Shown here piece after piece: positions 1 to 16,700 of a stretch of 21,934 nucleotides of DNA. A program made the position numbers and the translations under genes. The stretch covers positions 1 through 21,934 of IMG/VR virus record IMGVR_UViG_3300020457_000117, one strand, 5' to 3'. The notes beneath the pieces are model-generated. The model ran no database searches. It was not told the DNA's origin and saw nothing but the letters and a program-made list of their open reading frames with translations. The DNA comes from a virus. The number at the start of each line of letters is the position of its first letter. Within the stretch, counting starts at the first letter, position 1.

Positions 1-1
1 C

Positions 2-94
2 AACGAAGTGCATGAATCTGATAGCATTTCTGTATGGTACTCCCCCGAATATTACACATTAAGTGATACTATTCAATCCGAAGTTTGGTACTAA
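2..94 (+). CDS. 3' end of a truncated hypothetical gene
   Basis: An open frame enters from the left edge and stops at TAA 92-94, giving the last 30 residues of a protein that ends in SEVWY. The tail is acidic and aromatic-rich (several Asp, Glu, Tyr and Trp). No start codon or domain is visible, so the function is unknown. It reads in the same direction as the small genes that follow and is followed at once by a hairpin that may be its terminator. The reading frame is supported only by being open from the edge and by the terminator placed just after its stop. Confidence 0.5.
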   Translation, partial: NEVHESDSISVWYSPEYYTLSDTIQSEVWY

Positions 95-107
95 AATAAT
101 ACTCACG

Positions 108-126
108 AGGGGACAATCTTTCCCCT
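108..126 (+). terminator. Probable intrinsic terminator after the truncated gene
   Basis: A perfect 6-bp stem AGGGGA/TCCCCT encloses a 7-nt loop and is followed by TATTT. It lies 14 bases after the stop of the truncated gene. The stem is GC-rich for this genome, but the T-run is short, so termination may be incomplete. Confidence 0.5.
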
Positions 127-157
127 TATTTAATGCCCATTTAACAAACAATTCATT

Positions 158-418
158 ATGCAAATTACATCTAAAAAAGGTTCAATAGTATTAGATTACT
201 ATCCAATTAAGAATCTGAATAATAACATTTATCAAGATGAAGTTCTGAGGGTGTTAACATTTAGGGGTGAAACTATGAATAAAAGAATCATTACAACTGA
301 AAAGATGGGTGATGAAGTGTTAGATAGAAAGGATAATTTCGATTATATTATAACAGATAACAGTAAAGGTTTACCACAATTTGTATCACATTATCAGAGA
401 AGATCTTACATAGACTAA
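158..418 (+). CDS. Hypothetical protein, 86 aa
   Basis: This 86-residue frame starts at the first ATG after the hairpin at 108-126 and ends at TAA 416-418. There is no clear Shine-Dalgarno sequence; the upstream bases are AT-rich, which is common in marine cyanophages. The product is soluble-looking and polar, rich in Asn, Asp, Lys and Ile, with no signal peptide or membrane segment. I recognise no domain. It heads a run of five small co-directional genes (158-1123), a pattern typical of phage accessory or early regions. It could encode a host-modifying protein, but the sequence does not show what it does. Confidence 0.6.
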   Translation: MQITSKKGSIVLDYYPIKNLNNNIYQDEVLRVLTFRGETMNKRIITTEKMGDEVLDRKDNFDYIITDNSKGLPQFVSHYQRRSYID

Positions 419-448
419 CATGATTCACTTATTTGTGCTATTATTAAT

Positions 449-673
449 ATGCGTAATCGCATCATCAATGATAACACTTTACGTTCACAATCCTCATCAT
501 TATTAACAATGAAACAACGTATTACAGTCTCTCAGTATGAACAATTACAAGAAGAGTTTGACTTTAAAAATCAACAATATGACTCTGTTAATTGTTATCA
601 TAGTCCGTTATATTACAATAATCCGTTATACTTTAATCCACTATCTTATGAGGTAATTGACAATGAACACTAA
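449..673 (+). CDS. Hypothetical protein, 74 aa
   Basis: A 74-residue frame with a polar N-terminal half and a striking Tyr/Asn/Pro-rich C-terminal half (residues 45-70, with near-repeats of PLYYNNPLYFNP type). The N-terminal part contains QYEQLQEEFDF, likely helical. No family is recognised. The leader contains GTGCTATTAT, a 10-mer also found just before the small gene at 5019. There is no good ribosome-binding site at ATG 449; a second in-frame ATG lies at residue 21. Its last 11 bases overlap the next gene, which suggests translational coupling. Confidence 0.55.
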   Translation: MRNRIINDNTLRSQSSSLLTMKQRITVSQYEQLQEEFDFKNQQYDSVNCYHSPLYYNNPLYFNPLSYEVIDNEH

Positions 674-815
674 TGAATTACAGTCCTATTATGCACAACA
701 AGCATTAATAGATAGAAACCAAACTCAAGGATTATCGTCACTAATTAATAAGAATAAAACACAAGATGATTATAAAAAGTGTTATAAACCGTATCGTACT
801 CTTAATAACTATTAG
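663..815 (+). CDS. Small hypothetical protein, 50 aa, overlapping the previous gene
   Basis: The frame runs from ATG 663 to TAG 813-815 and encodes 50 residues rich in Gln, Asn, Lys and Tyr, with the ending RTLNNY. It overlaps the 3' end of the preceding gene by 11 bases in another frame. A GAGG at 650-653, nine bases before the ATG, supports this start. The product looks soluble, with a Q/N-rich helical first half. No homologue is recognised. The overlap, the ribosome-binding site and the tight spacing to the next gene (9 bases) are the reasons for calling it real. Confidence 0.5.
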   Translation: MNTNELQSYYAQQALIDRNQTQGLSSLINKNKTQDDYKKCYKPYRTLNNY

Positions 816-824
816 GAGAGAAAT

Positions 825-959
825 ATGCAATCAATGACTAACTATGAATGGGATGAAGATTTCTACAAAGAAATAGTTAAGGATCACAATTATAGATTTC
901 CGAAGTATAATAGTATTGATTATCCCTTACCTAATATAACACATAGAGAGGAGGAATAG
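825..959 (+). CDS. Small acidic hypothetical protein, 44 aa
   Basis: ATG 825 is preceded by a good Shine-Dalgarno sequence (AGGAG, 814-818), itself overlapping the stop of the previous gene. The 44-residue product is acidic and aromatic (YEWDEDFYKE near the N-terminus, THREEE at the C-terminus), soluble-looking and without a recognised family. Its stop TAG (957-959) overlaps the GTG start of the next gene in TAGTG, a classic coupling arrangement. The ribosome-binding site and coupling make a real gene likely even though it is short. Confidence 0.55.
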   Translation: MQSMTNYEWDEDFYKEIVKDHNYRFPKYNSIDYPLPNITHREEE

Positions 960-1123
960 TGACATCTAATTATACACGACATGGCAGAAGTCCGTTATCT
1001 GATGAACATTTAAGGCAGTTAGATTGTCTTTATAAAGCATACAATCAAGAAGGCATATCAGAGGGAGATAAAAGATTTTACTGGGCAAAGATTCAACAGT
1101 TAACTAATAGTCTAACAGAGTAA
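959..1123 (+). CDS. Small hypothetical protein, 54 aa, GTG start
   Basis: The start is taken as GTG 959, one base overlapping the previous stop, because AGGAGG (949-954) is the strongest ribosome-binding site in this part of the window and there is no in-frame ATG. The 54-residue product (ending LTNSLTE) contains a likely helix with SDEHLRQLDCLYKAYNQEG and an aromatic FYWAKIQQL segment, reminiscent of small helical phage proteins but not assignable to a family. It is the last gene before the 365-base gene-free region, and its stop lies inside the first copy of the TAAGTTTTCCACA repeat. Confidence 0.6.
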   Translation: MTSNYTRHGRSPLSDEHLRQLDCLYKAYNQEGISEGDKRFYWAKIQQLTNSLTE

Positions 1124-1159
1124 GTTTTCCACAGAAAGTATCATTAATTGTGGAAAACT
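1123..1159. repeat. 11-bp perfect inverted repeat built from two DnaA-like boxes
   Basis: AGTTTTCCACA (1123-1133) and its exact reverse complement TGTGGAAAACT (1149-1159) are separated by 15 bases. It could form a hairpin or cruciform immediately after the gene ending at 1123. No T-run follows, so it is a poor intrinsic terminator; paired binding sites are the better reading. Confidence 0.6.
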
Positions 1160-1257
1160 ATGCTATTATATGTTAAATAAGGTGTTAAAATGGTCTTATA
1201 AATATAACCTTGTTGTTTATAAGTTTTCCACAATGTTGTTAAAAACCCTTGTTAATA

Positions 1258-1307
1258 TGTGGAATAAGTGTTAATTAGTAGAAATATTGTGTGGATAAGT
1301 GTTGATT
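1258..1307. repeat. Imperfect direct repeat containing two minus-strand boxes
   Basis: TGTGGAATAAGTGTTAATT (1258-1276) and TGTGGATAAGTGTTGATT (1290-1307) differ by one inserted base and one substitution, and start 32 bases apart, about three helical turns. The copies carry the TATTCCACA and TTATCCACA boxes respectively. The identity extends beyond the 9-mers, which suggests duplication of a larger binding unit. Confidence 0.5.
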
Positions 1308-1320
1308 TCTTAGTGATCTT

Positions 1321-1376
1321 AGCGAGTCGATTATAACACGAACTCGCTTAAATTACCAGACCCTCGGTAATATTTT
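1321..1376 (+). other. Two consecutive hairpins in the gene-free region
   Basis: The first hairpin has stem AGCGAGT/ACTCGCT (1321-1327 and 1342-1348) with a 14-base loop. The second has stem ATTACC/GGTAAT (1352-1357 and 1366-1371) with an 8-base loop and is followed by ATTTTG, so the pair could end a short transcript. No tRNA cloverleaf can be drawn. They may be a small RNA, a terminator or an origin-associated structure; the evidence is structural only. Confidence 0.3.
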
Positions 1377-1429
1377 GTAGGGATATTAAGTTTTCCACAT
1401 ATAAACCTTTTTATAAATATCCTTACTAC

Positions 1430-1458
1430 TTGACAATAACTCCGTTATATTGTAGAAT
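1430..1458 (+). promoter_or_regulatory. Sigma70-type promoter TTGACA-N17-TAGAAT
   Basis: TTGACA (1430-1435) matches the -35 consensus exactly, the spacer is 17 bases, and TAGAAT (1453-1458) has one mismatch to the -10 consensus. The expected start is near 1465, leaving a leader of about 25 bases before ATG 1489. Host-type promoters like this usually drive early genes in cyanomyoviruses. Confidence 0.7.
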
Positions 1459-1488
1459 ACTTATTAACACTCTCCTCCCTCTAATCTC

Positions 1489-1662
1489 ATGACAGTTAGT
1501 AACTATTATGGACAAAAGAGTAAGTATAGAATAACGCTGGAATTAGATGTCTTAGATGACTTTAACCCTCGACAGATTGAGTGGGAAAAGTTATTTGAAT
1601 TGCAGGACAATGAGACTGTAGAAAGTGTTATCGAAGACCTGCAAGATCCTGTGAGTTGGTAA
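1489..1662 (+). CDS. Small acidic hypothetical protein, 57 aa
   Basis: ATG 1489 follows the promoter at 1430-1458 by about 30 bases. The 57-residue product begins MTVSNYYGQK, has a central beta-like YRITLELDV stretch followed by DDFNPRQIEWEKLFEL, and ends acidic (QDPVSW). No Shine-Dalgarno is seen; the leader is pyrimidine-rich (CTCTCCTCCCTCT). No family is recognised. The first 13 bases are identical to those of the gene at 1763, so the two small genes share their initiation region and the N-terminal MTVS. As the first gene after a strong host-type promoter, it is plausibly an early gene; that is inference. Confidence 0.6.
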   Translation: MTVSNYYGQKSKYRITLELDVLDDFNPRQIEWEKLFELQDNETVESVIEDLQDPVSW

Positions 1663-1762
1663 CACTAACGGGGGGTCGATTAAAGTGTTGCTATAGTATA
1701 CGACCTGAACAAGTCTTTAAACTATTCTTATAAACAATTACCACCTAATTAGGTTCTTTATT

Positions 1763-1891
1763 ATGACAGTTAGTAGCACACAGTTTGTATCACCAAACTT
1801 TGCAGAATTTCTATTAGAAAATACAAACAATGGCAATGAAATCTTATCAGTTCTCGATGATATTGTAGAGGGTGCAGATACAGTCCTATAA
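1763..1891 (+). CDS. Small acidic hypothetical protein, 42 aa
   Basis: ATG 1763 opens a 42-residue frame, MTVSSTQFVS at the start and ending DDIVEGADTVL, acidic and probably helical in the middle (FAEFLLEN). A weak AGG at 1751-1753 precedes it. The frame ends 14 bases before a strong terminator, which supports its being expressed. A possible extended -10 element (TGCTATAGT, 1689-1697) lies upstream without a matching -35, so it may instead be read from the promoter at 1430. The shared 13-base start with the gene at 1489 suggests a partial duplication. Function unknown. Confidence 0.55.
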   Translation: MTVSSTQFVSPNFAEFLLENTNNGNEILSVLDDIVEGADTVL

Positions 1892-1905
1892 GTAACAACA
1901 ACCGT

Positions 1906-1939
1906 TCCCCTGCTAACTAACACTTAGTGGGGGATTTTT
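1906..1939 (+). terminator. Strong intrinsic terminator
   Basis: An 11-bp stem, TCCCCTGCTAA (1906-1916) with TTAGTGGGGGA (1924-1934), closes with two G-T wobble pairs around a 7-base loop and runs into TTTTT. It ends the transcript of the two small genes at 1489 and 1763. Confidence 0.85.
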
Positions 1940-1965
1940 ACCAGTCTTAAATGTTACTTAGTGCC

Positions 1966-2029
1966 ACACAGTTATTATAACATTGTGGTTACACAGTTGT
2001 TGACACATAGGACAGTAATATGGTACAAT
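1966..2029 (+). promoter_or_regulatory. Sigma70-type promoter with operator-like direct repeats
   Basis: TTGACA (2000-2005) and TACAAT (2024-2029) are 18 bases apart, a good host-type promoter. Directly upstream, ACACAGTTATT (1966-1976) and ACACAGTTGTT (1991-2001) form a direct repeat with a 25-base period; the second copy overlaps the -35 box, as expected of an operator. Transcription from here would give a leader of about 150 bases before the oxygenase gene. That leader (2036-2184) has a G/T-rich segment (2040-2095), a weak hairpin AGGG/CCCT near 2107, and two TATAAAAA elements (2099, 2151) one base off the late promoter octamer. I see no known riboswitch in it. Confidence 0.55.
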
Positions 2030-2184
2030 TGTTATATACAGTCGTTCGGCAGTTATATGCGGTTCGTTTATATTTTGCGTCGGTTGCGTTGCCCCGTTTA
2101 TAAAAAAGGGTAAGTCCCTAACCTACAGAGGTGACAATTCGAGTTCTATATATAAAAATCCGAAAAAATTTTTGGGGGTAAAAA

Positions 2185-2829
2185 GTGTCTCATAGGGGTT
2201 TTAAAAGAACTTTTAAAAGAATACTGGGAGTCCCCATATGGGAAATAAAAAAGAGAGATACTTTTAACCAACAGAAAATAATAGATGAGATAATCGCAGC
2301 AAAGAAAAAAAATCCAGAACAAACAGAAAAGCAAGAAGTTGATAAATGGGAGTGGGAAGATCTTGGTGGATTTGGTGTAAATGAAGGATTCCACCAACAA
2401 GGATATGAATCATATGCATATATGAACTCACCTGAATCTGACTTAGTAGAAACATACCAATATATGAGAGACGTATTGGAGAGTGATGGTGGATTAGATT
2501 TCCCCCATCAGATATGCGAAGGATGGTTTAATTTCAATAAGAAATTCCAAGCAAACATGCCACACACTCATGGTGAGGTAGGATTAGCATCTGTATTGTT
2601 TTTAAAGAACGCAAAAGGGTTGACGTTTTACTATCCGAATCCTTTTAGTGGTATTGACAACCATAATGATGCAGTTGGATTAGACATGTCATTAGAGTTT
2701 TATCATGTGGATGCAGAGGTAGGAGATGCTGTAGTATTTCCAAGCAATCTATTACATTGGGTAAGACCTCATAATAAAGAAGAAGATAGAATAACATTTG
2801 CTTGTAACATTAAAATAAATAGATTCTAA
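2185..2829 (+). CDS. 2-oxoglutarate/Fe(II)-dependent oxygenase family protein
   Basis: The 214-residue product resembles the compact 2OG-Fe(II) oxygenase family common in marine cyanomyoviruses. Visible signatures are W114-F-N, the first metal-ligand region PHTHGEV (His127, His129, Glu131), a beta strand LASVLFL, then GDAVVFPSNLLHWV with the distal His191, and an Arg at 202 in RITFACNI, placed where the family binds the 2-oxoglutarate carboxylate. The first ligand set is H-T-H rather than the textbook H-x-D, as is common in this branch. The first ~100 residues are basic then acidic and not conserved. GTG 2185 is used because a stop codon lies two codons upstream and there is no in-frame ATG for about 80 codons. 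Substrate unknown; virion protein or host metabolite hydroxylation are both possible. Confidence 0.8.
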   Translation: MSHRGFKRTFKRILGVPIWEIKKRDTFNQQKIIDEIIAAKKKNPEQTEKQEVDKWEWEDLGGFGVNEGFHQQGYESYAYMNSPESDLVETYQYMRDVLESDGGLDFPHQICEGWFNFNKKFQANMPHTHGEVGLASVLFLKNAKGLTFYYPNPFSGIDNHNDAVGLDMSLEFYHVDAEVGDAVVFPSNLLHWVRPHNKEEDRITFACNIKINRF

Positions 2830-2830
2830 A

Positions 2831-3061
2831 ATGAATGATATGGAATCAACAACCTATCACATCTATGCAAAAGATAGAGTATTGTATTATAATCTAGAGG
2901 AAGAAGAATTTAAAGAGAAGTGGGAACTACTTCAAGTCATGGTAGATTTGTTAGAGACAGACTATACTGAGAGAGACTTATCATATATTAAGTTGACACC
3001 TGTTGGATGGCCAGGTAAGATCGTTCATAAAACACCTATGTGGGAAGAAGATTCATATTGA
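2831..3061 (+). CDS. Conserved-looking hypothetical protein, 76 aa
   Basis: It starts one base after the oxygenase stop and so belongs to the same transcript. The 76-residue protein starts with MNDMESTTYHIYAKDRVLYY, followed by an acidic helix (EEEEFKEKWELLQVMVDLL) and DYTERDLSYIKL. An alternative start is ATG 2840 (MESTTYH), which fits my memory of related cyanophage proteins better. There is no membrane segment or known domain. Its stop TGA (3059-3061) lies inside the -35 box of the next promoter. The role is unknown; the close coupling suggests it works with or alongside the oxygenase. Confidence 0.7.
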   Translation: MNDMESTTYHIYAKDRVLYYNLEEEEFKEKWELLQVMVDLLETDYTERDLSYIKLTPVGWPGKIVHKTPMWEEDSY

Positions 3062-3086
3062 CATATACATAATACCGATGTATAAT
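3058..3086 (+). promoter_or_regulatory. Perfect consensus sigma70 promoter before the glycosyltransferase
   Basis: TTGACA (3058-3063), a 17-base spacer and TATAAT (3081-3086) match the bacterial housekeeping consensus at all twelve positions. The -35 box overlaps the upstream stop codon. Expected transcription starts near 3093, some 16 bases before ATG 3109. Confidence 0.8.
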
Positions 3087-3108
3087 TGAAAAGTAATTAC
3101 AAGGTATT

Positions 3109-3876
3109 ATGGGAAAAGGATTTACCGTAAAAGCAAATGCTCCTACAAAGAAAAAGGAAGAATGGGACATCCCTGCGATTAAGGAAAGATGGAAAGGTAA
3201 GACAATAGTATTTTGTCTACCTGGTAGAGGATGTTCATATATCTTTCTGAAGAACTTTGTACAACTATGTTTTGACATGGTTCAGAATGGAATGAGTATT
3301 CAGATATCTCAGGATTACTCATCTATGGTAAACTTTGCAAGATGTAAGTGTCTTGGAGCAAATGTATTACGTGGACCTAACCAGATACCTTGGGATGGTA
3401 AACTTAAGTATGACTATCAGTTATGGATTGACTCGGATATAGTCTTTGACACTAACAAGTTCTGGCAATTAGCAGATCTTGCATTACCTGCTGAAGGTGC
3501 TGAGAAAGAAATTACAGCAGGTTGGTATTGTACAGAAGATGGCAAGACTACATCTGTCGCACACTGGTTAGAGGAAGATGATTTCCGTACAAATGGTGGA
3601 GTAATGAACCACGAAATGGTGGATGGCATCAGCAAGCGTAAGAAACCATTCACTGTAGATTACACAGGTTTTGGATGGGTGCTCGTTAAAAAGGGAGTCT
3701 TTGAGAATCTTCCATATCCTTGGTTTGCTCCTAAGATGCAAGTCTTTGAATCTGGTAGTGTACAAGACATGTGTGGAGAGGACGTATCGTTCTGTCTAGA
3801 TGCCAAAGAGAAAGGTTATGAAATCTGGTGCGATCCTCGTATCAGGGTCGGTCACGAAAAAACTCGTGTAATATAA
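3109..3876 (+). CDS. GT-A-like glycosyltransferase
   Basis: The 255-residue protein looks like a GT-A-fold (family-2-like) glycosyltransferase. An N-terminal strand KTIVFCLPGRG (31-41) is followed by NFARCKCLG (75-83), then the metal-binding DxD-type motif LWIDSDIVF (DSD at 108-110) at the end of a strand, an acceptor-side segment DYTGFGWVLVKKGVFE (184-199), GEDVSFC (223-229) and a C-terminal strand with His249 in GHEK that may complete the metal site. There are no membrane segments, so the enzyme is cytosolic. The start is the ATG after the consensus promoter. Likely targets are a phage protein, phage DNA or host envelope sugars; the sequence does not decide. The downstream gene starts four bases after its stop. 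Confidence 0.75.
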   Translation: MGKGFTVKANAPTKKKEEWDIPAIKERWKGKTIVFCLPGRGCSYIFLKNFVQLCFDMVQNGMSIQISQDYSSMVNFARCKCLGANVLRGPNQIPWDGKLKYDYQLWIDSDIVFDTNKFWQLADLALPAEGAEKEITAGWYCTEDGKTTSVAHWLEEDDFRTNGGVMNHEMVDGISKRKKPFTVDYTGFGWVLVKKGVFENLPYPWFAPKMQVFESGSVQDMCGEDVSFCLDAKEKGYEIWCDPRIRVGHEKTRVI

Positions 3877-3880
3877 ACCT

Positions 3881-4102
3881 ATGAATAAAGATCAGCAGTT
3901 ATCTATGGAACGATCCGTTAAGTGGGTTGATTTTCATATGCCTTCAAAGACATCAGAAGAACTATGGTATCTTTGTTCAAACATTCTTACAGAACTATCC
4001 GAGCGTGACTCGGTTCGATATCGTATCAGAGCAACGGAAGCATCTGTAGCAGCGAAACTCGATTTAATTGATGAAGACACACACGACTCGGAGGGTTGTT
4101 AA
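3881..4102 (+). CDS. Small helical hypothetical protein, 73 aa
   Basis: It lies four bases after the glycosyltransferase stop and joins the next gene without a gap, so it is co-transcribed. The 73-residue product is mainly helical: SEELWYLCSNILTELSERD (39-56 region) and VRYRIRATEASVAAKLDLID, ending in an acidic DEDTHDSEGC. No family recognised. Its last codons carry GGAGG, the ribosome-binding site for the 47-residue gene that follows. Function unknown. Confidence 0.65.
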   Translation: MNKDQQLSMERSVKWVDFHMPSKTSEELWYLCSNILTELSERDSVRYRIRATEASVAAKLDLIDEDTHDSEGC

Positions 4103-4246
4103 ATGGCAAAAATGTTTAGCGGTGGCGTAGCAGGGGAAACTCTCGAATCAAAACCGAAAAAAACTCGTCAAGGAAGAGGAAAGCATACCAAATATGCCGC
4201 TTCCTCTCGTAACCATGCTAAAAAAAGAAGTAGAGGTCAAGGATAA
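4103..4246 (+). CDS. Very basic small protein, 47 aa
   Basis: The frame starts on the base after the previous stop (TAAATG) with GGAGGG about seven bases upstream, a strong Shine-Dalgarno. It encodes 47 residues: a short MAKMFSGGVAG head, then a tail with 13 Lys/Arg and only two acidic residues (segments such as KPKKTRQGRGKHTKYA and NHAKKRSRGQG). It resembles small basic proteins I recall from other cyanomyoviruses, but I can name no family. The composition resembles ribosomal-protein tails and nucleic-acid-binding peptides. Binding to DNA, RNA or the acidic surface of another protein is inference. Confidence 0.75.
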   Translation: MAKMFSGGVAGETLESKPKKTRQGRGKHTKYAASSRNHAKKRSRGQG

Positions 4247-4248
4247 CC

Positions 4249-4956
4249 ATGCCAGCATTAATATGTAACTTACCTGCATATGAGGTGTGGGTAAGAAAAG
4301 AATATTTGCTTGACCATAAAGGTGGGCATGGTGAATTTGTAAAAGGTGTCTGGGTTGCTGCTAAAAGCATACCTGGACGTGCTTTTTACTTTGAGACTTA
4401 TCTACCTGATTATGCAGCAATGTTTGATAAGTTACCTATATCTGCGTTTCTAAGCGAACCAGAGATTCCTGATCCTGATATGGAGTTACATAACCTCCAG
4501 TTCTGGAATTGTATGGATTATGGCGTTACAGCAGTTCAAAAGCAGTTTGTAGGGTCTATGCACTATGAATTGTATACAAGAGACTATGGAACTCAGACAG
4601 GTACGTATATTTGTACATTAGATAACTATCATCAAGACGTTGATGCTGTTGATTATTCTACAAGTGAAAATCCTGCTGAACATAAGTCACATAATTTGAT
4701 TGAACTTGATAATGGTCAGTTTGCACTCTATCCAAATAATAGAATGCGTATCTATGATAATAGTTTAACACCTGAACCACCTAATATGCCTGATTTTAAG
4801 GTTTCTACGGTCTTCTATCAAGTGGAGAATGGTCATGATCGTGATGGACTAGGAAATGATGAAAATTATTTTTGGAAAACATCAAAAGAAAGAAAAGATA
4901 CTGAAGAACCTAGTAAAAATGTATCAGAAATTGAAATAGAACCAGAGTTAGGGTAA
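4249..4956 (+). CDS. Conserved-looking hypothetical protein, 235 aa
   Basis: It begins two bases after the basic protein, with AGAGG and AAGG upstream. The 235-residue product starts MPALICNLPAYEVWVRKEYL and has a compact aromatic core (SIPGRAFYFETYLPDYAAMF, then QFWNCMDYGVTAVQKQFVG and GSMHYELYTRDYG), a DNGQFALYPNNRMRIYD strand pair, a proline-rich turn (LTPEPPNMPDFK) and an acidic C-terminal tail of about 25 residues. There is no signal peptide, membrane segment or catalytic motif I can name. I recall similar proteins upstream of gp25 in other cyanophages but cannot search. It is the last gene before the terminator near 5000, closing this operon. Confidence 0.75.
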   Translation: MPALICNLPAYEVWVRKEYLLDHKGGHGEFVKGVWVAAKSIPGRAFYFETYLPDYAAMFDKLPISAFLSEPEIPDPDMELHNLQFWNCMDYGVTAVQKQFVGSMHYELYTRDYGTQTGTYICTLDNYHQDVDAVDYSTSENPAEHKSHNLIELDNGQFALYPNNRMRIYDNSLTPEPPNMPDFKVSTVFYQVENGHDRDGLGNDENYFWKTSKERKDTEEPSKNVSEIEIEPELG

Positions 4957-4974
4957 ATTATCTCAGATAAATAT

Positions 4975-5000
4975 AAAGGACTCTTCGGAGTCCTTTTTTT
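4975..5000 (+). terminator. Intrinsic terminator with UUCG tetraloop
   Basis: AAAGGACTC (4975-4983) and GAGTCCTTT (4988-4996) pair perfectly around TTCG, an especially stable tetraloop, and run into a T-tract to 5000. It separates the oxygenase/glycosyltransferase operon from the baseplate genes. Confidence 0.95.
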
Positions 5001-5018
5001 GTATCATCTAGTGCTATT

Positions 5019-5159
5019 ATGACCGAAAAGAAAATGTTGCGGGAAATTGCTAATGACACTATCACTCCTAAAAAGACTGATCGTAAAATAAACAATGATC
5101 TCTATGAAAATGATGATTTAGATTATGATGAAACTCTTTATGCACCTTGCGATATATAA
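5019..5159 (+). CDS. Small acidic hypothetical protein, 46 aa
   Basis: The frame from ATG 5019 to TAA 5157-5159 sits between the terminator and gp25. The 46-residue product has a basic first half (MTEKKMLREIAND, TPKKTDRKINND) and a very acidic second half (YENDDLDYDETLY), ending APCDI. It has no recognised domain. The leader TCTAGTGCTATT resembles the leader of the gene at 20811 and shares GTGCTATTAT with the gene at 449. The stop codon lies inside the late promoter for gp25, an overlap typical of compact phage genomes. Its reality rests on position and composition only. Confidence 0.5.
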   Translation: MTEKKMLREIANDTITPKKTDRKINNDLYENDDLDYDETLYAPCDI

Positions 5160-5203
5160 ATATTAATTAATACTAATAAATAAAGTAAGGTTTATAATAA
5201 ATA
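5155..5203 (+). promoter_or_regulatory. T4-type late promoter region before gp25
   Basis: TATAAATA at 5155-5162 matches the T4 late promoter octamer exactly and lies 42 bases before the gp25 start. Two further AATAAATA elements (5175-5182, 5196-5203) follow, the last abutting the ATG and so unlikely to act alone. This fits late, sigma-gp55-like transcription of the baseplate genes. GATAAATA at 4966-4973 is another partial match but precedes the terminator. Confidence 0.7.
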
Positions 5204-5204
5204 A

Positions 5205-5606
5205 ATGCCTTTACAGAGGGTAAGTCAAGGGTTTAAAGATATTAGCATGAGTTTTCAGGCTAATCCACTTAATAACGACCTTATAGGACTTAAAAACGAA
5301 AATGCTATCGCTAGAGCATTAAGGAATATTGTTTTTACCTTACCTGGTGAAAAATTCTTTAATGAAAACTTTGGTTCTAATGTTTCTGCTTCTCTTTTTG
5401 AGAATATTGATGATATTACTGCCTCTACCATAAAGGATGAAATATTTCAATCTATTATTAACTTTGAACCACGAGTTGAATTGACTAGCGTTAAGGTTTT
5501 CCCAAATTTTGATGAAAATGGGTTTGATGTTGTTATTAAATATATCATTATAGGGGCAGAAATTCCCCCACAAGAATTACAATTTGTTTTAATACCAACT
5601 AGGTAA
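5205..5606 (+). CDS. gp25: Baseplate wedge protein gp25
   Basis: The 133-residue product matches the gp25/GPW family in length (T4 gp25 is 132) and pattern: an N-terminal helix with NENAIARALRNIVFTLPGEK (31-50), FNENFGSNVS, a helical ITASTIKDEIFQSIINFEPR and the hallmark EPR motif at 88-90, then paired strands VELTSVKVFPNFDENGFDVVIKY. The protein forms part of the baseplate wedge core with gp6 and gp53 and is conserved in contractile injection systems. It follows a perfect late promoter and stops one base before the gp6 start codon. No strong Shine-Dalgarno is seen; AAGG lies about 15 bases upstream. Confidence 0.95.
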   Translation: MPLQRVSQGFKDISMSFQANPLNNDLIGLKNENAIARALRNIVFTLPGEKFFNENFGSNVSASLFENIDDITASTIKDEIFQSIINFEPRVELTSVKVFPNFDENGFDVVIKYIIIGAEIPPQELQFVLIPTR

Positions 5607-5607
5607 G

Positions 5608-7743
5608 ATGCCATTAGTTAATTTTAGTAACCTTGATTTTGATCAGGTTAAAACAACACTTAAAGAATATATTCAGTCGAATTCTAACTTCACTGACTAC
5701 GATTTTGAGGGATCTAACCTCTCAACTATCGTAGATGTTCTGGCATATAATACTTACATCACTTCATACAATGCCAACATGGTAACAAATGAAGTTTTCA
5801 TTGATAGTGCAACTTTACGAGAGAATGTAGTTAGTTTAGCAAGAAATATTGGATATTTACCTCGTTCTAGAAAAGCATCACAAGCAAATATAAGTTTTTT
5901 CGTCGATACAACAGGTATAAATCCTGCACCCTCAACTATTATACTTAAAAAAGGTCCAGTTGCAGCATCTCAAGGATCTTTTGGTGGTTCTTCTTTCGTT
6001 TTTTCAATTTTAGACGATATTACGGTTCCTGTTGTCAATAATATTGCAACATTTAACAATATTTTAGTTTATGAAGGAACTGTTTTATCATCTAACTTTA
6101 TTTTTAGCACAAGAGATCCAAATCAGAAATTTATTATCCCAAATACTGGTGTTGATACTGGATTAATGAAGGTTACAGTCGAACCAAACGCAAATTCTAT
6201 TAATGTAACGCAAAAATATAATTATACTCTCCAAGATAGCATTCTTGACATAAAATCTAACTCAAAAGTCTTCTATTTACAAGAAATTGAAGATGAACAA
6301 TACCAAATTTTCTTTGGAGACGGTATTTTTGGTCAAAAATTAGACGATGGCAACTTTGTAACTGTAGATTATATCGTTTCTAGTGGAAGTGAAGCAAATG
6401 GAGTCAATGCTTTTAGTTTTTCAGGTCGAATTGTTCATCAAGTAGCAGGTGCAGGGCAAAATAGAACTGAAACACCAATCACATCAGGCATTTCTTTAAT
6501 AACAACTAACATAAAAGCAACTGGAGGCGAAAGTATTGAGTCAGTTGAGTCGGTTAAGAAGTTTGCACCTAGAATTTATGCCTCTCAAAACCGTGCATTA
6601 ACTGCAAATGACTATGAAACTCTAATTCCAGCAAGAATTTACCCCGAAACAGAGTCAATTTCTGTTTTTGGAGGTGAAGAATTGATTCCTCCCCAGTATG
6701 GAAAGGTCTTTATTAGCATAAAACCAAGATCAGGTGATTTTTTACCAAATTTAACTAAGGATAACATCAAAAATAAGTTGAAAAAGTTTGCAGTTGCAGG
6801 AATTGTTCCAGAAATTCTTGATTTGAAGTACCTTTATCTAGAATCTGACTCCAAAATTTACTATAATTCCAATTTAGCACCTTCTGGTGGGATTGTTTCT
6901 TCAATAGTTCAACAAAATGCATCAAGATATGCAGATTCTAGTGAGTTGAACAAGTATGGAGCAAGATTTAAGTATAGTAAATTCTTAAATATGATTGATA
7001 ATAGTCATGATTCCATTACATCTAACATTACAACTGTTCAAATACGAAGAGATTTAAGAATAGTTCTTAATGCTTTTGCAGAATACTCTATTGGGTTTGG
7101 GAATGAGTTCCATATTAAGAACATGGGTGGTTATAATATCAAATCAAGTGCATTTACAGTATCAGGAATTAGTCAAGTTGTCTATATTTCAGACATTCCT
7201 AACACTAATAGAATAAATGGATCCTTATTCTTATTTACTTTACCATCTTCTAACTCTACATCACCTACAATTGTAAGAAGAAATGTCGGTTCTATCAATT
7301 ATCAGAAGGGAATTATTACTATTAATCCAATAGTTATACAATCTGGTAAGAAAAAAGACGGTCAAGCTATCATAGAACTATCTGCTACACCTAAATCTAA
7401 TGATGTCATTGGATTACAGGATCTTTATTTGCAACTAGATATAAGTAATAGTACCTTTGAACCTATTGTCGATGGAATTTCATCAGGTTTGAATCCATCA
7501 GCATCAAATTATACAGTATCTTCAAGTTTTGCAAATGGCAGTTTAGTCCGTGGCGGTGCAGTTAGTAGTGTAGTTGGTGAGGCAACTGGGGCAACTAGTG
7601 GCACAACAGGTACAACAGGCACGACAGGCACAAGCAGTTACGGAGGCGGTACATCAGGAGGTATGACTGGAGGCACGAGTGGTGCAACTGGTGGAACCAC
7701 TACATCATCTTCATCATCATCTTCATCAGGATCATCATACTAA
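5608..7743 (+). CDS. gp6: Baseplate wedge protein gp6
   Basis: This 711-residue protein is the gp6/J-type baseplate wedge subunit (T4 gp6 is 660). The N-terminus is characteristic: NFSNLDFDQVKTTLKEYI, then NFTDYDFEGSNLSTIVDVLAYNTY (about 28-50) and ENVVSLARNIGYLPRSRKAS. The middle is beta-rich, with QEIEDEQYQIFFGDGIFGQ (about 225-243) and AANDYETLIPARIYPE (about 333-347). gp6 dimers form the ring around the baseplate hub and bind gp25 and gp7. AGGTAAG just before the ATG is a close Shine-Dalgarno. Residues from about 655 to 711 are a Gly/Thr/Ser low-complexity tail not expected in the family. The gene sits between gp25 and the giant virion gene. Confidence 0.95.
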   Translation: MPLVNFSNLDFDQVKTTLKEYIQSNSNFTDYDFEGSNLSTIVDVLAYNTYITSYNANMVTNEVFIDSATLRENVVSLARNIGYLPRSRKASQANISFFVDTTGINPAPSTIILKKGPVAASQGSFGGSSFVFSILDDITVPVVNNIATFNNILVYEGTVLSSNFIFSTRDPNQKFIIPNTGVDTGLMKVTVEPNANSINVTQKYNYTLQDSILDIKSNSKVFYLQEIEDEQYQIFFGDGIFGQKLDDGNFVTVDYIVSSGSEANGVNAFSFSGRIVHQVAGAGQNRTETPITSGISLITTNIKATGGESIESVESVKKFAPRIYASQNRALTANDYETLIPARIYPETESISVFGGEELIPPQYGKVFISIKPRSGDFLPNLTKDNIKNKLKKFAVAGIVPEILDLKYLYLESDSKIYYNSNLAPSGGIVSSIVQQNASRYADSSELNKYGARFKYSKFLNMIDNSHDSITSNITTVQIRRDLRIVLNAFAEYSIGFGNEFHIKNMGGYNIKSSAFTVSGISQVVYISDIPNTNRINGSLFLFTLPSSNSTSPTIVRRNVGSINYQKGIITINPIVIQSGKKKDGQAIIELSATPKSNDVIGLQDLYLQLDISNSTFEPIVDGISSGLNPSASNYTVSSSFANGSLVRGGAVSSVVGEATGATSGTTGTTGTTGTSSYGGGTSGGMTGGTSGATGGTTTSSSSSSSSGSSY
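7582..7740 (+). repeat. Gly/Thr repeat and poly-Ser tract encoding the gp6 tail
   Basis: Four 9-base units of GGCACAACA type (7600-7635) encode Gly-Thr-Thr triplets, preceded by GGCAACTGG-like units and followed by Gly/Thr-rich codons and a TCA/TCT run (7708-7740) encoding about eight serines. The segment is in frame with gp6. It is richer in GC than its surroundings and of a form prone to slippage. Confidence 0.8.
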
Positions 7744-7752
7744 AACTATAAC

Positions 7753-10700
7753 ATGTCAGAAAAAAGAGTACAATTTAGTAATATTGTCCAAAATCAACTC
7801 CCTTCATATGTTAGGGCAGATTTTCCTTTAATATCTGAATTTTTAAAGCAGTATTATATTGCTCAAGAGTTTCAATCTGGTCCGATTGATCTGATTCAGA
7901 ATATTGATGAGTATGTAAAAATTGATGAAATTACAAATCTTAGCGAATCTGTTATTCTTGAAGAAGATATTGAAACAGATGCCACTACAATTAATGTAGA
8001 TTTATCAGCATCTGTAACAGGTACTAATGGATTCCCTGATTCTTATGGATTACTTAAGATTGGTGAGGAAATAATAACTTATACTTCAAAGACAGATACT
8101 TCATTTGTTGGATGTGTTAGAGGATTTGTTGGAACGTGCGACTATGATAAAGAATCATTACTTTTTAAAACATCTGATGCATCTATTCATAGTAAGGGTG
8201 ATGTAATTATAAATTTAAGTTGTTTATTTCTTAAGCAATTTTTATTAAAAAGTAAGTATCAATTACTACCAGGATTTGAAGGAAGAGCATTAAACGTAGA
8301 TTTAAACCAAAATGTTTTTATAAAACAATCAAAAGATTTTTACTTAAGTAAGGGAACTGATAGATCTTTTGAGATTTTATTTAAGGCACTTTATAATGAA
8401 GATGTTAGTGTAATTAAACCTAAAGATAGATTACTTACACCATCTAACGCTGAGTATAGGATTACAAAAGATATCGTTGTAGAACCCGTTACAGGCGATC
8501 CTAGCGACCTTACAGAGGCAACCCTGTACCAAGATGCATATTCAAATAATATTGAAAAAGCATATGCTCCAATTACAGCAGTCCAACAAATCAATGCTGG
8601 TGCTGGAAAAACATTTTATAAACTTAGCATAGATAGCGGATATAATAGAGATACTAGAGTAGATGGTTCTATATATGGAGAATTTTCAGTAAACCCAAAA
8701 ACAAAAATAATAGGAAAAGTATCTGCAGGAACTACTGTAGTGGATGTAGATTCTACAATTGGTTTTCCTAATAGCGGTGAATTATACGTAACTTATGAAG
8801 ATGAAAATATTGGATTTGTTTCTTATACTTCTTCATCGATAAACCAATTTTATGGAATTTCTAATGTATCAGGAACAATCTTAGATGGAACCACTGTAGG
8901 GATCAATACTTTTGCATATGGAACTTCAGGAATAGATGGTTCAATAGTTAAGGTTAGAATAACATCTGTATTAGAAAAAACTAATTATCCCAATAATACC
9001 TTTGGACATTCCAAAAATGAAACAGGAAAGATTAAAACTTTAGGTTTTAAGGGTACTGATTCTAAATTTAAAAATTGGATTTATAATGTAGCACCAATTT
9101 ATAAGATAAAAAGTTTTGATTTGATTGATGTATCAAATTTCACTTATAATGTTTCATTAGAAACAGAGCATTATTTTAACATAGGTGATTCTGCTCAAAT
9201 TATTACTTCAGGTTTACAATTAGCTGAATCAATGACAACTAAGATTGTCAGTGTTAATTCAGAAACCTCTTTTAGTATTCAGGGACAAGGGCAACTTCCT
9301 CCAGAAGGTGTTTATAATATTAAGAGATTAATATTACGTTCTACTTCTAACTCTTTTCCAGAATCTTCAATTTATTCTACAAATGTTCAGAATGTTTATT
9401 CTAAACCTGTAGATATTCTTAATGGAAAACCATATAATGGTCCTTCACATTTTCACCCAAATACAGGTAAGAAAATGGTGGGTGCAAAACATGTAGACAC
9501 ACCTCATCAAACTCTTACTACCATTAAAGGTTTAGATAAGTTATTAGTTGCATCTTCTTCTATACCTTCTTATCCTTCTCAACCAATTAATGCATCTACT
9601 AGATCAATTTCATTTAAAGGAACTTTTGTAGGTGATGAATTTAATATTAGTGATTTATCTGATGGCACTATTATTGATGATCATGGTTTTTATACTGGAG
9701 ATGAGGTATATTATACTCCAGAAACAATAACTTCATCTACAATTAGTCCTATTACAGGTTCAGTAGGAGTTACCACTTCTATAAACTATCTGCTTCCAAA
9801 AGAAGGTCTTTATTTTATTAAAAGAATAGATTCTAGAATAGTAAAATTTGCTGTAAGTGCATCTGATATTTACAATAATAAATTTGTTTCTATTCCTAGC
9901 ACCACTGTAATAAATCAAGTAATAGAACCTTACAAATTTAAAAACAAGACCTTAGAATCTCAAAAATTATTCAGAGAAGTATGTCCACCTGAAGAGCATA
10001 GTTCTAAAACAAAAACAGAGGCAGGATTTACTGGTATATTAATTAATGGAGTTGAGATATTAAATTATAAATCTCCAGATATTATAAGATACGGTAAAAT
10101 TGAAGATATTGAGATTTTAGCAGCAGGATCTAATTATGATATAATTAATCCTCCCAATGTAAATATCACAGATAATATTGGTACAGGTGCAACAGGATTT
10201 TTAGGTGTTTCTGGACAATTAAAAGAAATAAGAATAAAAGATAGTGGATATAATTATGCGAAAGCACCAAGGGTGACTATAACTGGTGGTGGAGGTGAAG
10301 GTGCAAAGGCTTCATCAAAAATGAAGTTAATTACTAATGAAGCACCATTTGTTGCTCAAGTTATTAATAACGTAATTAATGTTGGTTTAGGTGCAACTAA
10401 TTCTACAATTGGATTTAGCACTTTTCATAGATTCAATCAAGGTGAAAAAGTAATTTATATTTCAAATGGACAAAAAGGAGTTGCAGGATTAAGTACAAAT
10501 AATGTTTACTATGCTGGATTAAAAAATTCTACTAAAATTTCATTACACACAAGTGAAGAGGATGCATTTATTGGTATTAATACAGTTACTTTAACTGACT
10601 ATGGTGTAGGAACTCAATTTATAAGATCATTTGAGAAAAAATTAGTATTAGACTCTTTTGTTATTGTTGACAGTGGATCTAATTATAGAAATAATAGAAC

Positions 10701-13700
10701 TGTTGCTGTTGGTGTTAATACTTCAAATAATCAAATTAATGTTAATAACCATAATTATAATGATGGTGATATTATTAAGTATAATACTCTAGGAACAAAA
10801 ATTGATGGATTAGATGATGGTTCTGAATATGTTGTAACTAAAATTAATGATGATAATTTTAAACTTTCTGCACTAGGTCCAATTGGAGATAAAAAGTTTA
10901 ATTATACTACAAAACAGTATATTAATTTTATTTCAAAAGGTGTTGGAACTCAAGTCTTTAATTATCCAGAAATTAGTGTAACTTTAAGTGATGATGCAGA
11001 TCAAATTCAAGGAAGAAAGTATCCATGCGAAATTGATCCTATTTTTAGAGGTAGCATAACATCTCTAAATTTAACAAATAATGGTGTTGGATATGGTTCA
11101 TCTGAAATTATTAATTTTAACAGACAACCTTTAATTGAACTTTCTAATTCTATAAATGCTCAATTATCTGCCATTATTAATGATGGCAAAATAGTCGAAG
11201 TTCTTGTTATCAATCCTGGTTCTGGTTATGTTAGTTCTCCTGATATAATTGTTAATGGTAGTGGTATTGGTGCTGTACTTGTACCCATACTTGAAAATGG
11301 AACTATAAAAGAAGTTAAAGTTATTGATCCTGGTACAAACTACAGTCAAGACACAATCAATATTTCTGTTGTAACACCAGGAACTGGAGCAGAGTTTAAA
11401 TCAAATATTAAGACATGGACAATAAACTTAGTTGAAAAAAATAGAAGTTCATTTACTGCTGACGATGGTTTTATTACCAATCCAAGAAATATTGATTTTG
11501 GACTTCAATATTCTCATTTATATGCACCTAGAAAATTAAGAGGACAAACATTTGCTGTCGGTATTAATACTGTTACAGGTGATGTTTTATATGGACAATC
11601 TGATTTACAAATTGTTAATGGAGAGGAATCAACATCTCAGTTCCATTCACCAATAATTGGTTGGGCATATGATGGAAATCCAATTTATGGACCATATGGA
11701 TATACCTCTAAGAGTGGTGGATCAGTTGGTCAATTAAAGTCTGGATATGAAATTAATCTGTCTGATGAAAGACCTCCTAGCAATGTATTTCCTCCAGGAT
11801 TCTTTATAGAAGATTATTCTTATGTAAAAACAACTGATGCATTAACCTTAGATGAAAATAATGGAAGATTCTGTGTTACTCCAGATTATCCAAAAGGAAC
11901 ATATGCATATTTTGCTACAATTACGCCTGGTCAATTATTAGATTCTGATGGACCTTTTGAAGGATTTAAGAGTCCTGTTTTCCCGTATCTTATTGGTGAT
12001 AAGTTTAACTCAAAGGTAAATGAATTTAATTTGAAGATCTCTTCAAATCAAGATAATTTAGATTTAAATGAAACTGATTGGTCTAGAAATACAGATCCAT
12101 ATAATTTGATTGACGATACTCTTAGATATAACTATCTTTCTATTCCCGATGATTTATCACAAACTGTTGATGTTACTTCAGTGCTTCCAGGTTCTGTTGA
12201 TAGTATTGGTATTAGCACAGGAGGAAGTGATTATAAAATAGGAGAGTTTGTAGTCTTTAAAAATAGTGATACTCAAGGTTCTGGTGCTAATGCAAAAATA
12301 TCTAGAATTGAAGGAAAAACAGTTAAGTCTATAAGTTTAGGAACGACTAGTATTGATAGTGTTGAATTTTATTCAACATCAAATGGAGATTATGAAGTTG
12401 TTTCCTCTAATCCTCATAATTTTAAATTAAATGATCATATCATAGTTTCTGGATTATCTACAACTACTTCTAAGTTAGAGGGTGCATATAAAATAGGAAT
12501 TACTACTGCTAATTATTCTCTGACTGGTGGAGGAAGAACTTCTGGGGGTGTTGGTGATATATCAGCAACTGGTATCGTAACTTTCTTTAATGTTAGTGGT
12601 AATATTGTTGCAGAACCAAATGATATATTTAAAATTGGTACAGAAGAAATAAAAGTTCTAAATCCAGAACCAACAAAATCTAGACTTAGAATTTTGAGAG
12701 GTCAAAACGGAACTGCAGGATCTTCCCATACAGTAACATCTACTCTCTTTGAACAGCAACGAAGATTAACAATAAACTCAGGATTCCATACAACAGATAC
12801 TATAAAACGTAATACTGAAATTTATTTTGATCCTTCTGAGTCAGTTTCTGTTGGAGTTGGTATAGGAACTACATTATCATTCTCTAATCCTGGTGCTGGT
12901 GTAAGTGAACTTTTTGTTCCTTCAAAATCAATATTCCTCCCTAATCATAAATTAGAAACAGGAGATAAGTTAACATATAATTCTAATACAGGAACAGCAC
13001 TTTCAGTTAGGTATAATGAAAGTTCTTCTATAGTTTCTTTAACTGATGGGCAAACTCTTTTTGCTGCTAAAATTACTCCAGATTTAGTAGGAATATCAAC
13101 TGTTCTTGTAGGAGTAGGAACTACAGGATCATTTACTGGTATTGCAAGTGCTTTTAGTAACTCCTCTACTTTATTCTTTAGTGGAATAGGAACGGGAGTC
13201 TTTCATAGTTTTAAAACTAACTATAAACCAATAACAGGTAATATTAAAAGAAATTTAGTAACTGTATCAACAGCAAACACTCATGGATTAACCAGTGGTG
13301 ATATAACTGATATTAAAGTAAATCCTTCTATTGGATCCACTTTCATTGTGGAGTATAACGATTATAATAGAAGAATTGTAATTAATCCAAGAGATTTTGA
13401 TCTTGCAAGTGTAAACGTTGATACAAATACAATAACCATACCTGATCACGGATATTTTACTGGACAGAAAGTTATTCATACTGCAGCAACTCCTTCTGTT
13501 GGATTGGAAGATAATGCAATTTATTATGTTGTTGTAACTGGTGATAACACAATCAAATTATCACCAACTCTTTATGATGCAACTCTACTTAAACCAAATG
13601 TATTGAATATTACTGGTGCTGCTAATGGAACTATTGCTCCTATCAATCCAGCAATTAGTGCTTATAAAGATTCTTTAATTGATTTTAATCTTACAAGTCC

Positions 13701-16700
13701 TACATTATCATATCTTAAGTTAACAAGTCCATATTCTGCATTTGAATTAGATTTTTACACAGATAAAGAAATGACTATTCTTTGGAATAAGAGTAGTGAA
13801 AGTAGTTCATTTGAAATCAATAGAAGAGGAAGTGTAGGTATTTCTACAAATGCTAATGTAACTTTGGCAGTTAGTAAAAATTTACCATCAATTTTATACT
13901 ATAAATTTAATCCTATATTTGAATCAGATGTACCTGATGTTAAAAAAGAAATTATAGTAGATACTGAAAATTCTTCAAATAGTGAAATACAAATAAAAAA
14001 TAGTCTTTATAATGGAAAACAGCAAATTAATGTTGGTATTGGTTCTACTAATGCATTTACATATACGTTATCAGTAGATCCAGAAAAATCATCTTATATT
14101 TCATCTACATCTGAAATAGATTACACAACTAACTCAAAAACTGCTTTAGGTTCAATATCCAAGGTAGATGTACTTTATGGTGGTGGTAATTATTACAACC
14201 TTCCTGGTATTTCTACAATCACTACTTTATTTGGAAAAAATGCTATTATAAATGCGTCAAGTTCATCCATAGGAAAGATTAATAGTAATACTATTAAAGA
14301 TATTGGATTTGATTTTCCTTCTGACAAAACTTTAAGACCTTCTTTAAGTTTGCCTCAAGTTATAGTAATTGACGCACTTCAAGGAATTGAATCTATAGGA
14401 ATAACATCCGTTGGTCGTGGTTACTCTTCTGCACCTAAGTTATTAGTATTTGATGGTAAAACTGATGAGAAAGTAATAGGTTTAGATTTAGCGTATGATT
14501 TAGAATCATCTACGGTAACCATTTTATCTAACACTGCAGGAGTTAATAATACTCCACCAAAAGTTCTCCCTACAAAAAATAGTAACGGTGTAGGAATTAG
14601 TACTATTAGTTACAATTCTTCTACTAAAGATGTAACAGTTAGTCTTGAAGTAGGATTTGGAACTGATGATTCATTCCCATTTGCTTTTGGTGATAAAGTT
14701 CTGATTGAAGGCGTTAGTATTGGAGTAGGATCGGAAGGAAAGGGATATAATTCTGAAAATTATGATTATCAATTATTCTCTGTAGTATCTCTTGCAAAAA
14801 ATCCAGGTGGTATTGCAACAGTTGGATATAATTTAAGTGAACATTTCCCTGATAATTTGACAACTCCAGGTAATATGGATGTTTTCAATTCTTCAGGTAG
14901 AATTATTCCAGAAAAAGATTTTCCTAGTTTTGATGTTAAATTAAAATCTAAAGAATATTTTATAGGGGAAACCGTTTCATCTAAGTCTGCTTCTGGTAAA
15001 GTTGAATCATGGAATTCTATAAATGGAATATTAAATGTAACTTCTGACAATGATTTTAAAGTTGGTGAACGTATTACTGGTTCAACATCAAACAGTCAAG
15101 GGACAGCATCAGAAGTAAATTCTTATAATTCCTTTATTGACTTAAATTACTTCTCAATAGTTAAAAATGGATGGCAAAGTGAATCTGGAGTTTTAAATAA
15201 TAATTTACAAAGAGTTCAAGATAATCTTTATTATCAAAGATTTGCATATTCATTAAAATCAAGAGTTCCTTTTAGTACGTGGGAAGATATTGTTGGTTCT
15301 TTGAACCATACTTTAGGATTTAGAAAATTTGCAGATTTTCAAGCAGAATCTTCTAATGTAGGATCTTATGGTATAGTTGGTAGTCAAGTCTTATTTAATG
15401 CTGCTGGTGGATTTGACAAGACAGGTATTTCTACTGATAGTAGTGCTAATCCTCCTGGTGGACAATGGGTGATGTCTAGCACTCAAGGTAGTGCTAACGT
15501 ATCACAATCTCCAATAACAGTACGTCCTTTAGAACCCTCTGCTATTGTTGATAGACTTCAAGATGTAATTGGATTTGGTAATTTAAATTCTGTACATGAT
15601 TTTGAGATTGGTACTGAAAATACATTGAAAGTAACGTCTTCAGAAATAGTTTCTAATGAAATAATTTTATCTGGATCAAGAATTCTTACTGATTACTTTG
15701 AATCAATTGGAAACCGAGTTCTGACTATAGATGATATTAGTGGTCAATTTAATAGCAATCCAAGAACAACTGAATTTACCGTTGTAAGTAAGTTTAATTT
15801 AGAAGATACTAGATCTTTAAAATATATTACTTATGTTAAAGATAAGAGATTCTTCAATACAAGACAATTAATGATTGTTGATCTTGTTCATGATAATTAT
15901 ATTGGATATTTGAATCAATATGGTAGACTAGAAAATGTTCATGATTTAGGATCATTTGATTTCAATATTAGTGGAACTGAAGGTCAATTGCTATTCTTCC
16001 CAAATAAGAGTAAAGTAAATGATTATGAGGTTACTGCTTTATCATACAATATAAATGATAATTTATTGTCAGTAGGAAGCAGTGTATTTGGTGCTGCAGC
16101 AGAAGTTAAAACAAGCAGTGTGCAAATACCTGCCAATACTCCTACAACAATTGTAAGTATTGCTAGTACTTATCGTGCAGCAAAAGTTTTAGTATCTCTT
16201 ACTGCAGATACTACAAGGATTGATGCTGGTGGAGAATTTGAGTTTGATGAACTTAACATTCTTAATGATGGAACAAATGTAGAAATACTTGAATATCCAC
16301 AATTAATTACCAGCACTGGTTTAACCAATCCAATACCTGGATTTGGAACTTACTCTGGATATCTTGATGGTAATCTAGTGAAGATTGATTTCCATCCTCA
16401 TAACAGCACTGCTGGTGTAGGAACTACTTCAATAGTTAATACCATTCAAGTTGCTATCAGCAGTGAAACTTCTACTGGAACTGGTGCATTTGATTTAAAA
16501 CATGCCAGAATTGAAGGTAGATCAACAACTATAAGTTCTTCAGGTTCTCCAACTGAAAATGTTATTGGAAGTTATCCTGATGATTATGATGCAGCATATT
16601 TTATTGTTCAGATATCTGATACTACTAACAACACGTATTCCTTCTCTGAAGTAATTACTATTGATGATTATGATAGTGTTACTGATACTGGTGATACTTA

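Follow-up and report, generated by a model that had tools for sequence, protein, structure and literature searches.

Why should a lytic T4-like phage, which brings a replisome of its own, carry a dense cluster of sites for the replication initiator of its host? The question is raised by a DNA stretch of 21,934 nucleotides (IMG/VR virus record IMGVR_UViG_3300020457_000117, positions 1 to 21,934), denoted here as the window. An initial annotation had assigned it to a T4-like cyanophage, and its identity as a fragment of such a genome is borne out by gp25 and gp6 (Pfam, PHROGs). Few viruses in the sea are as abundant as the T4-like cyanophages. A description of DnaA boxes in cyanophages or T4-like phages was not found in the literature, a mention in the Syn9 genome or transcriptome papers being possible, and a single predicted theta origin in Syn9 is the sole information on replication start in a review (PMC2984593).

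The sites occupy 275 bp of intergenic DNA. Five match TTWTCCACA exactly, TTTTCCACA accounting for four, and a sixth is a weak box; their orientation is mixed:

1125..1133, plus strand: DnaA box 1, TTTTCCACA, exact match, left arm of an inverted pair
1149..1157, minus strand: DnaA box 2, TTTTCCACA, exact match, right arm of the inverted pair, its start 24 bp from that of box 1
1184..1206, plus strand: A+T-rich element lying between boxes 2 and 3 and including TATAAATA (1197-1204)
1224..1232, plus strand: DnaA box 3, TTTTCCACA, exact match, +99 from box 1
1256..1264, minus strand: weak box TATTCCACA, near match read from the sequence
1290..1298, minus strand: DnaA box 4, TTATCCACA, exact TTWTCCACA match
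1391..1399, plus strand: DnaA box 5, TTTTCCACA, exact match, ~30 bp upstream of the rightward promoter
1430..1458, plus strand: predicted rightward sigma-70-type promoter, TTGACA-17-TAGAAT, with a -35 that is invariant across the aligned relatives

The inverted pair of boxes 1 and 2 is perfect, with the layout AGTTTTCCACA-N15-TGTGGAAAACT. A 13-mer, TAAGTTTTCCACA, is present in three identical copies at 1121, 1220 and 1387, the first of which shares bases with the stop codon of the preceding ORF. The cluster is flanked by a 54-aa ORF (959-1123) on the left and a 57-aa ORF (from 1489) on the right; between them (1124-1488) there is no ORF of at least 50 aa on either strand, merely a 29-aa minus-strand frame. 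In 400 first-order Markov simulations of the whole window, scored per 279-bp stretch, the means per whole window were 0.49 for TTTTCCACA and 0.93 for TTWTCCACA, and three or more boxes in any 279-bp stretch were reached in 0/400, compared with five in the window. The cluster is genuine and chance is excluded; at least three host-type DnaA boxes within ~300 bp, as in an oriC-like region, are present. All boxes were found again, and the dense, gene-free array beyond chance expectation described in the initial annotation stands. The region is wider than first described, since the rightward promoter and a leftward promoter element at ~1310-1366 belong to it.

Conservation was assessed in an alignment of the window with 17 relatives. 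Some of these relatives had been retrieved by means of boxes 1 and 2. Box 1 is identical in 17/17; boxes 1-3 show 99-100% identity to the window, and box 3, which like the weak boxes played no part in retrieval, shows 99%. The weak box TATTCCACA reaches 90% and box 4 89%, so that most boxes stand at 89-100% compared with 44-63% for most spacers between them. Box 5 has a column identity of 53% and shifts its position among relatives; in three of these (L143, L157, L185), a box sits within the -35/-10 spacer of the rightward promoter. A second retrieval used gp6 similarity only and yielded 80 loci, 16 of which had more than 3.8 kb of upstream sequence. TTTTCCACA is clustered at 9/16 of these and ranks top among all 9-mers for clustered recurrence, compared with a mean of 0.01 loci and a maximum of 1 for 400 permuted motifs. 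The best box cluster genome-wide is found at the same locus, ~3-8 kb upstream of gp25-gp6, in 6/6 complete or near-complete cyanomyovirus genomes, with gp6 identity to the window down to 34%. Four were chosen independently of the boxes (Syn9, cluster at 52.57 kb; S-SM1, 48.84 kb; S-PM2, 19.23 kb; ACG-2014d, 36.9 kb) and two were found via window similarity or box pattern (G003, 41.7 kb; S-SM2, 58.07 kb). The inverted box pair occurs in at least 120 viral contigs and its permuted version in 0; the corresponding scan of genome contigs also matches many bacteria and is not counted as evidence. Exact clustered boxes are absent from Bellamy, P-SSM2/5, P-SSM4, S-RSM4, P-HM1, S-CRM01 and S-CAM7. Since several cyanomyoviruses do without them, DnaA is not essential for the replication of T4-like cyanophages in general. 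The cluster is conserved at this locus in many relatives, though not universally, and the objection that the initial annotation had foreseen, a lack of conservation in close relatives, is thereby removed.

Some relatives differ in the layout of the boxes. L124 and L188 harbor several tandem TTTTCCACA boxes in ~80-300 bp, denser than in the window. ACG-2014d (KJ019056.1) has an extreme helix-phased array, in which four tandem boxes or near boxes follow one another at intervals of exactly 11 bp (36889-36930), and, 0.9 kb from this array, a second box pair, also with 11-bp spacing (37817-37836). In S-PM2 (NC_006820.1, 19177-19333), the DnaA boxes are covered by annotations for tRNA-Asn and tRNA-Leu, neither of which is found by ARAGORN; this annotation looks spurious.

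The substitutions tolerated in the boxes match those at host dnaN origins. As a cyanobacterial DnaA box, TTTTCCACA has been published and is supported in vitro, boxes of this sequence having been subjected to binding assays in Cyanothece and Anabaena (PMC4674748), in agreement with the cyanobacterial type assigned at the outset. Among single-substitution variants, those enriched near clusters carry only A at box positions 1, 2, 3 or 6; positions 4, 5 and 7-9 are essentially invariant. The weak box TATTCCACA carries one of the enriched changes, T-to-A at position 2. The variants ATTTCCACA, TATTCCACA, TTATCCACA and TTTTCAACA are also located upstream of dnaN in small cyanobacterial genomes (1.6-2.7 Mb, taken as picocyanobacteria from this size and the dnaN position), two of which hold three exact TTTTCCACA there. 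Host variants on the dnaN side that are not enriched in phages exist as well, e.g. TTTTCCCCA, and the match between phage and host boxes appears good but not exact. A full DnaA is encoded in 15/15 picocyanobacterium-like genomes; DnaA domain IV is absent from 16/16 cyanophage records and present in both hosts tested. Tandem boxes are spaced by 11-12 or 20-22 bp, i.e. in helical phase, in 36/41 cases, the p-value being indicative only because related sequences are not independent. Convergent boxes are mostly 13-14, 23-25 or 34 bp apart, a range partly set by the search pattern. Both kinds of spacing would suit a protein that assembles along a single face of the helix, and the phased arrays are a further trait of oriC-like regions. 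Judged from the sequence, the region very probably binds host DnaA.

Cyanobacterial oriC (dnaN side) likewise has TTTTCCACA boxes on both strands and tolerates similar variants, but its boxes are spaced differently (roughly -/+/- at 0/43/63 in L441 and L459), it lacks the leftward promoter element, and the phage region has no dnaN or dnaA neighbor. Simple capture of a host oriC was rejected, given the different box spacing and the absence of dnaA from the phage.

The leftward promoter element, designated K, is located ~40-190 bp to the right of the strong boxes and has the following layout in the window:

1310..1366, minus strand: element K, conserved putative leftward promoter with extended -10 and degenerate -35
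1359-1354, minus strand: -35 of K, CTGGTA, degenerate and poor in the window
1335-1330, minus strand: extended -10 of K, TGT-TATAAT, a perfect -10 in the window
1321-1327 and 1342-1348: imperfect dyad of K, AGCGAGT / ACTCGCT, around the leftward -10

In many relatives, K takes the form TTGACA-N17/18-TATAAT/TATACT/TAGAAT with a TG extension on the minus strand; the Syn9 group has a poorer -10, TAAGAC. Members of the Syn9 group have the sequence TTGTRGTCTTAGCRYG..CTAWCA..TGTCAA, those of the window group GTGATCTWAGCGAGC..TATAACACGA. By its sequence, K is a putative sigma-70 promoter directed leftward into the boxes, and no minus-strand gene was found behind it in the window. Its degenerate consensus occurs once per genome among the matching genomes, and K lies to the right of the boxes in every genome carrying both. 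When sites were fetched by K, without box information, two or more boxes were present on the left in 22/23 sites of the Syn9 type and 36/86 of the window type, nearly no boxes on the right, and ~0 permuted boxes. A profile search detects K also in Bellamy and other box-less relatives, and in S-RSM4 it is located 6.7 kb upstream of gp25.

In some relatives, both arms of the dyad at the -10 of K (AGCGAG..CTCGCT) are altered (CCGAG/CTCGG, CCGTGC/GCACGG); in L110, L164 and L137, its right arm is flipped, giving a direct repeat. Metagenome contigs often start or end inside K or at most 100 bp from it (L018, L027, L038, L011 and 11 further K sites). The assembly probably broke here because the stretch is conserved, although a replication structure or a physical end is conceivable too.

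Position adds a further line of evidence, for which the neighboring genes serve as anchors:

1489..1662, plus strand: 57-aa ORF (phrog_12516), directly downstream, a conserved neighbor of the cluster
5205-5606, plus strand: gp25 baseplate gene, synteny anchor for the comparison with T4 oriE/oriF (Pfam, PHROGs)
5608-7743, plus strand: gp6 baseplate gene, synteny anchor for the same comparison (Pfam, PHROGs)

The T4 record gives 79,355 as the position of oriE, which puts it 1.7 kb ahead of gene 6, and has oriF next to gene 25; the primer RNA of oriE runs in (-)-direction and is complementary to the gene 5 transcript. T4 oriE has evenly spaced repeats, which are present in syntenic regions of relatives, and needs an early promoter (PMC3016281). 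Cyanophage genomes have gp25 and gp6 side by side, and the cluster with K lies upstream of this block, i.e. just upstream of gene 6/gene 25 as for T4. Both regions combine repeats with a promoter of early type, one independent of phage factors, and K would, by its sequence, provide a host-type promoter for an antisense (-)-direction RNA comparable to the oriE primer. They differ in that T4 oriE lies inside gene 5, with 12-nt iterons and no clustered DnaA boxes, whereas the region in the window lies between genes, carries element K together with DnaA boxes of the host type, and shows no 12-nt iterons. The likeness is positional, with no sequence homology established.

On this basis, the segment 1120-1460 is, with slight preference, read as a control region bound by host DnaA, most likely one replication origin of the phage and the counterpart of T4 oriE. 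Belief and doubt are about balanced for origin function itself, oriE-like and DnaA-assisted; the region would then be of the T4 origin type but employ the host initiator. Transcriptional control or DnaA titration are possible roles as well. The cluster beside its conserved promoter is the best candidate for the replication start of these viruses. A DnaA-assisted, oriE-like origin would explain the position, the array geometry and the noncoding leftward promoter together. In the proposed scheme, host-DnaA boxes take the place of the 12-nt iterons of T4. Early in infection, host RNA polymerase would fire K through the box array, and pre-existing cellular DnaA would assemble on the helix-phased boxes as well as on the inverted pair. 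DnaA might then open or stabilize an A+T-rich stretch, or hold the K transcript as an R-loop, after which the phage replisome (gp43, gp41/61 and so on) would start at the box region. Initiation would need no phage-made initiator, because DnaA is already in the cell.

A candidate unwinding element is the A+T-rich stretch at 1184..1206. Its TATAAATA resembles a T4/cyanophage late promoter, and it is kept in the box-less Bellamy, L075 and L006. When stretches of window positions 1-5200 are ranked by stability, two of the lowest eight fall in the cluster region; helical instability near the cluster is exceptional in S-PM2, S-SM2 and ACG-2014d and ordinary in Syn9, S-SM1 and G003. The cumulative GC skew, proposed in the initial annotation as a check, did not point to the locus: the cluster coincides with no minimum or switch in six complete genomes, and skew-step tests on complete genomes gave nothing consistent. 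This is a weak test here, since nearly all genes are on one strand and the skew is positive throughout.

DnaA-assisted origins of temperate phages and plasmids, such as P1 oriR, pSC101 and R6K, also place host DnaA boxes on a non-chromosomal replicon. These replicons rely on a plasmid-type Rep protein and iterons; the window, by contrast, belongs to a T4-like phage that is lytic and brings its own replisome, and beside the box site no Rep gene was seen. The proposed origin would offer a single, exact and conserved candidate site per genome together with a named host factor, making origin use directly testable in the cultured phages Syn9, S-PM2, S-SM1 and S-SM2, and could tie phage replication to the host cell cycle via DnaA.

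The strongest competitor, considered rather unlikely, is a transcriptional switch, in which host DnaA would regulate K and the rightward promoter, by repression or timing, and couple early phage transcription to the DnaA state of the host, no origin being involved. The boxes do adjoin two oppositely directed promoters, with K on their right wherever both occur, and a box inside the rightward -35/-10 spacer, as in the three relatives named above, occupies a classic repressor place. However, a simple operator would not require a convergent pair of strong boxes together with several weak boxes at 60-190 bp from the promoters, and K has no gene to express.

More improbable is a DnaA sink, in which the boxes, once a few copies of the phage genome exist, would draw off host DnaA so that the host initiates no further rounds of replication, much as datA does in Escherichia coli. 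The latter is a DnaA titration locus with a compact cluster of about five DnaA boxes, as in the window. The phage boxes are of perfect consensus, better than most host oriC boxes, and the phage genome multiplies during infection. Yet only ~2-6 boxes are present per phage genome, and fixed genome position, conserved spacing, helix phasing and linkage to K are all unneeded in, and unexpected of, a mere sink. A datA-type locus would hold boxes without origin or promoter function, whereas promoter sequences are present at this site. The position match with oriE, the helix-phased arrays and the conserved leftward noncoding promoter favor an origin over a passive sink.

Slightly less probable still is binding by another protein at an origin or promoter, either phage-encoded or a host factor, with a specificity resembling DnaA. 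The place left of K does accept other sites: in box-less, K-bearing relatives such as S-RSM4, L580, L586 and L596, a different motif, ATTCTCAA/TTGAGAAT, is often repeated there. The substitution pattern of the boxes, however, agrees with host oriC boxes and the known cyanobacterial DnaA box, and no DnaA-like domain is encoded in the phages tested. An RNA hairpin acting in processing or stability, for which the 11-bp inverted repeat of boxes 1 and 2 might speak, is highly improbable and was rejected, as S-SM2 and ACG-2014d have the 9-mer only in tandem and unable to pair, lone boxes are kept as exact 9-mers, and a permuted inverted pair of equal pairing occurs in 0 contigs.

Returning to the DnaA-assisted origin, it can tentatively be suggested, with doubt prevailing, that in a branch of lytic T4-like viruses the T4-type origin was replaced or supplemented by a host-DnaA-driven one, with an exchangeable slot for initiator sites beside a fixed K. 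As tentatively, this slot would hold DnaA boxes in most members, the ATTCTCAA repeat in some and nothing recognizable in others. Some other initiator or regulator may bind the ATTCTCAA/TTGAGAAT motif; in S-RSM4 (L466, NC_013085.1, ~140.2 kb), it forms an inverted repeat, TTCTCAATA..TATTGAGAA.

Further features of the window were recorded beside the box region. An Rfam scan of the window matched no family. A second conserved noncoding stretch (1976-2160) lies upstream of a 2OG-Fe(II) oxygenase gene and contains a predicted promoter, TTGACA-18-TACAAT, at 2000; the block 2095-2153 shows 85% identity to phage Bellamy. The product of 4249-4956 falls into a PHROG family of ferredoxins (phrog_3704), whereas its S-SM2 homologue is annotated as purM, and Pfam backs neither. 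One ORF of 4343 aa (7753-20784) occupies the position of gp7, the baseplate wedge initiator, and is enlarged as in S-SM2.
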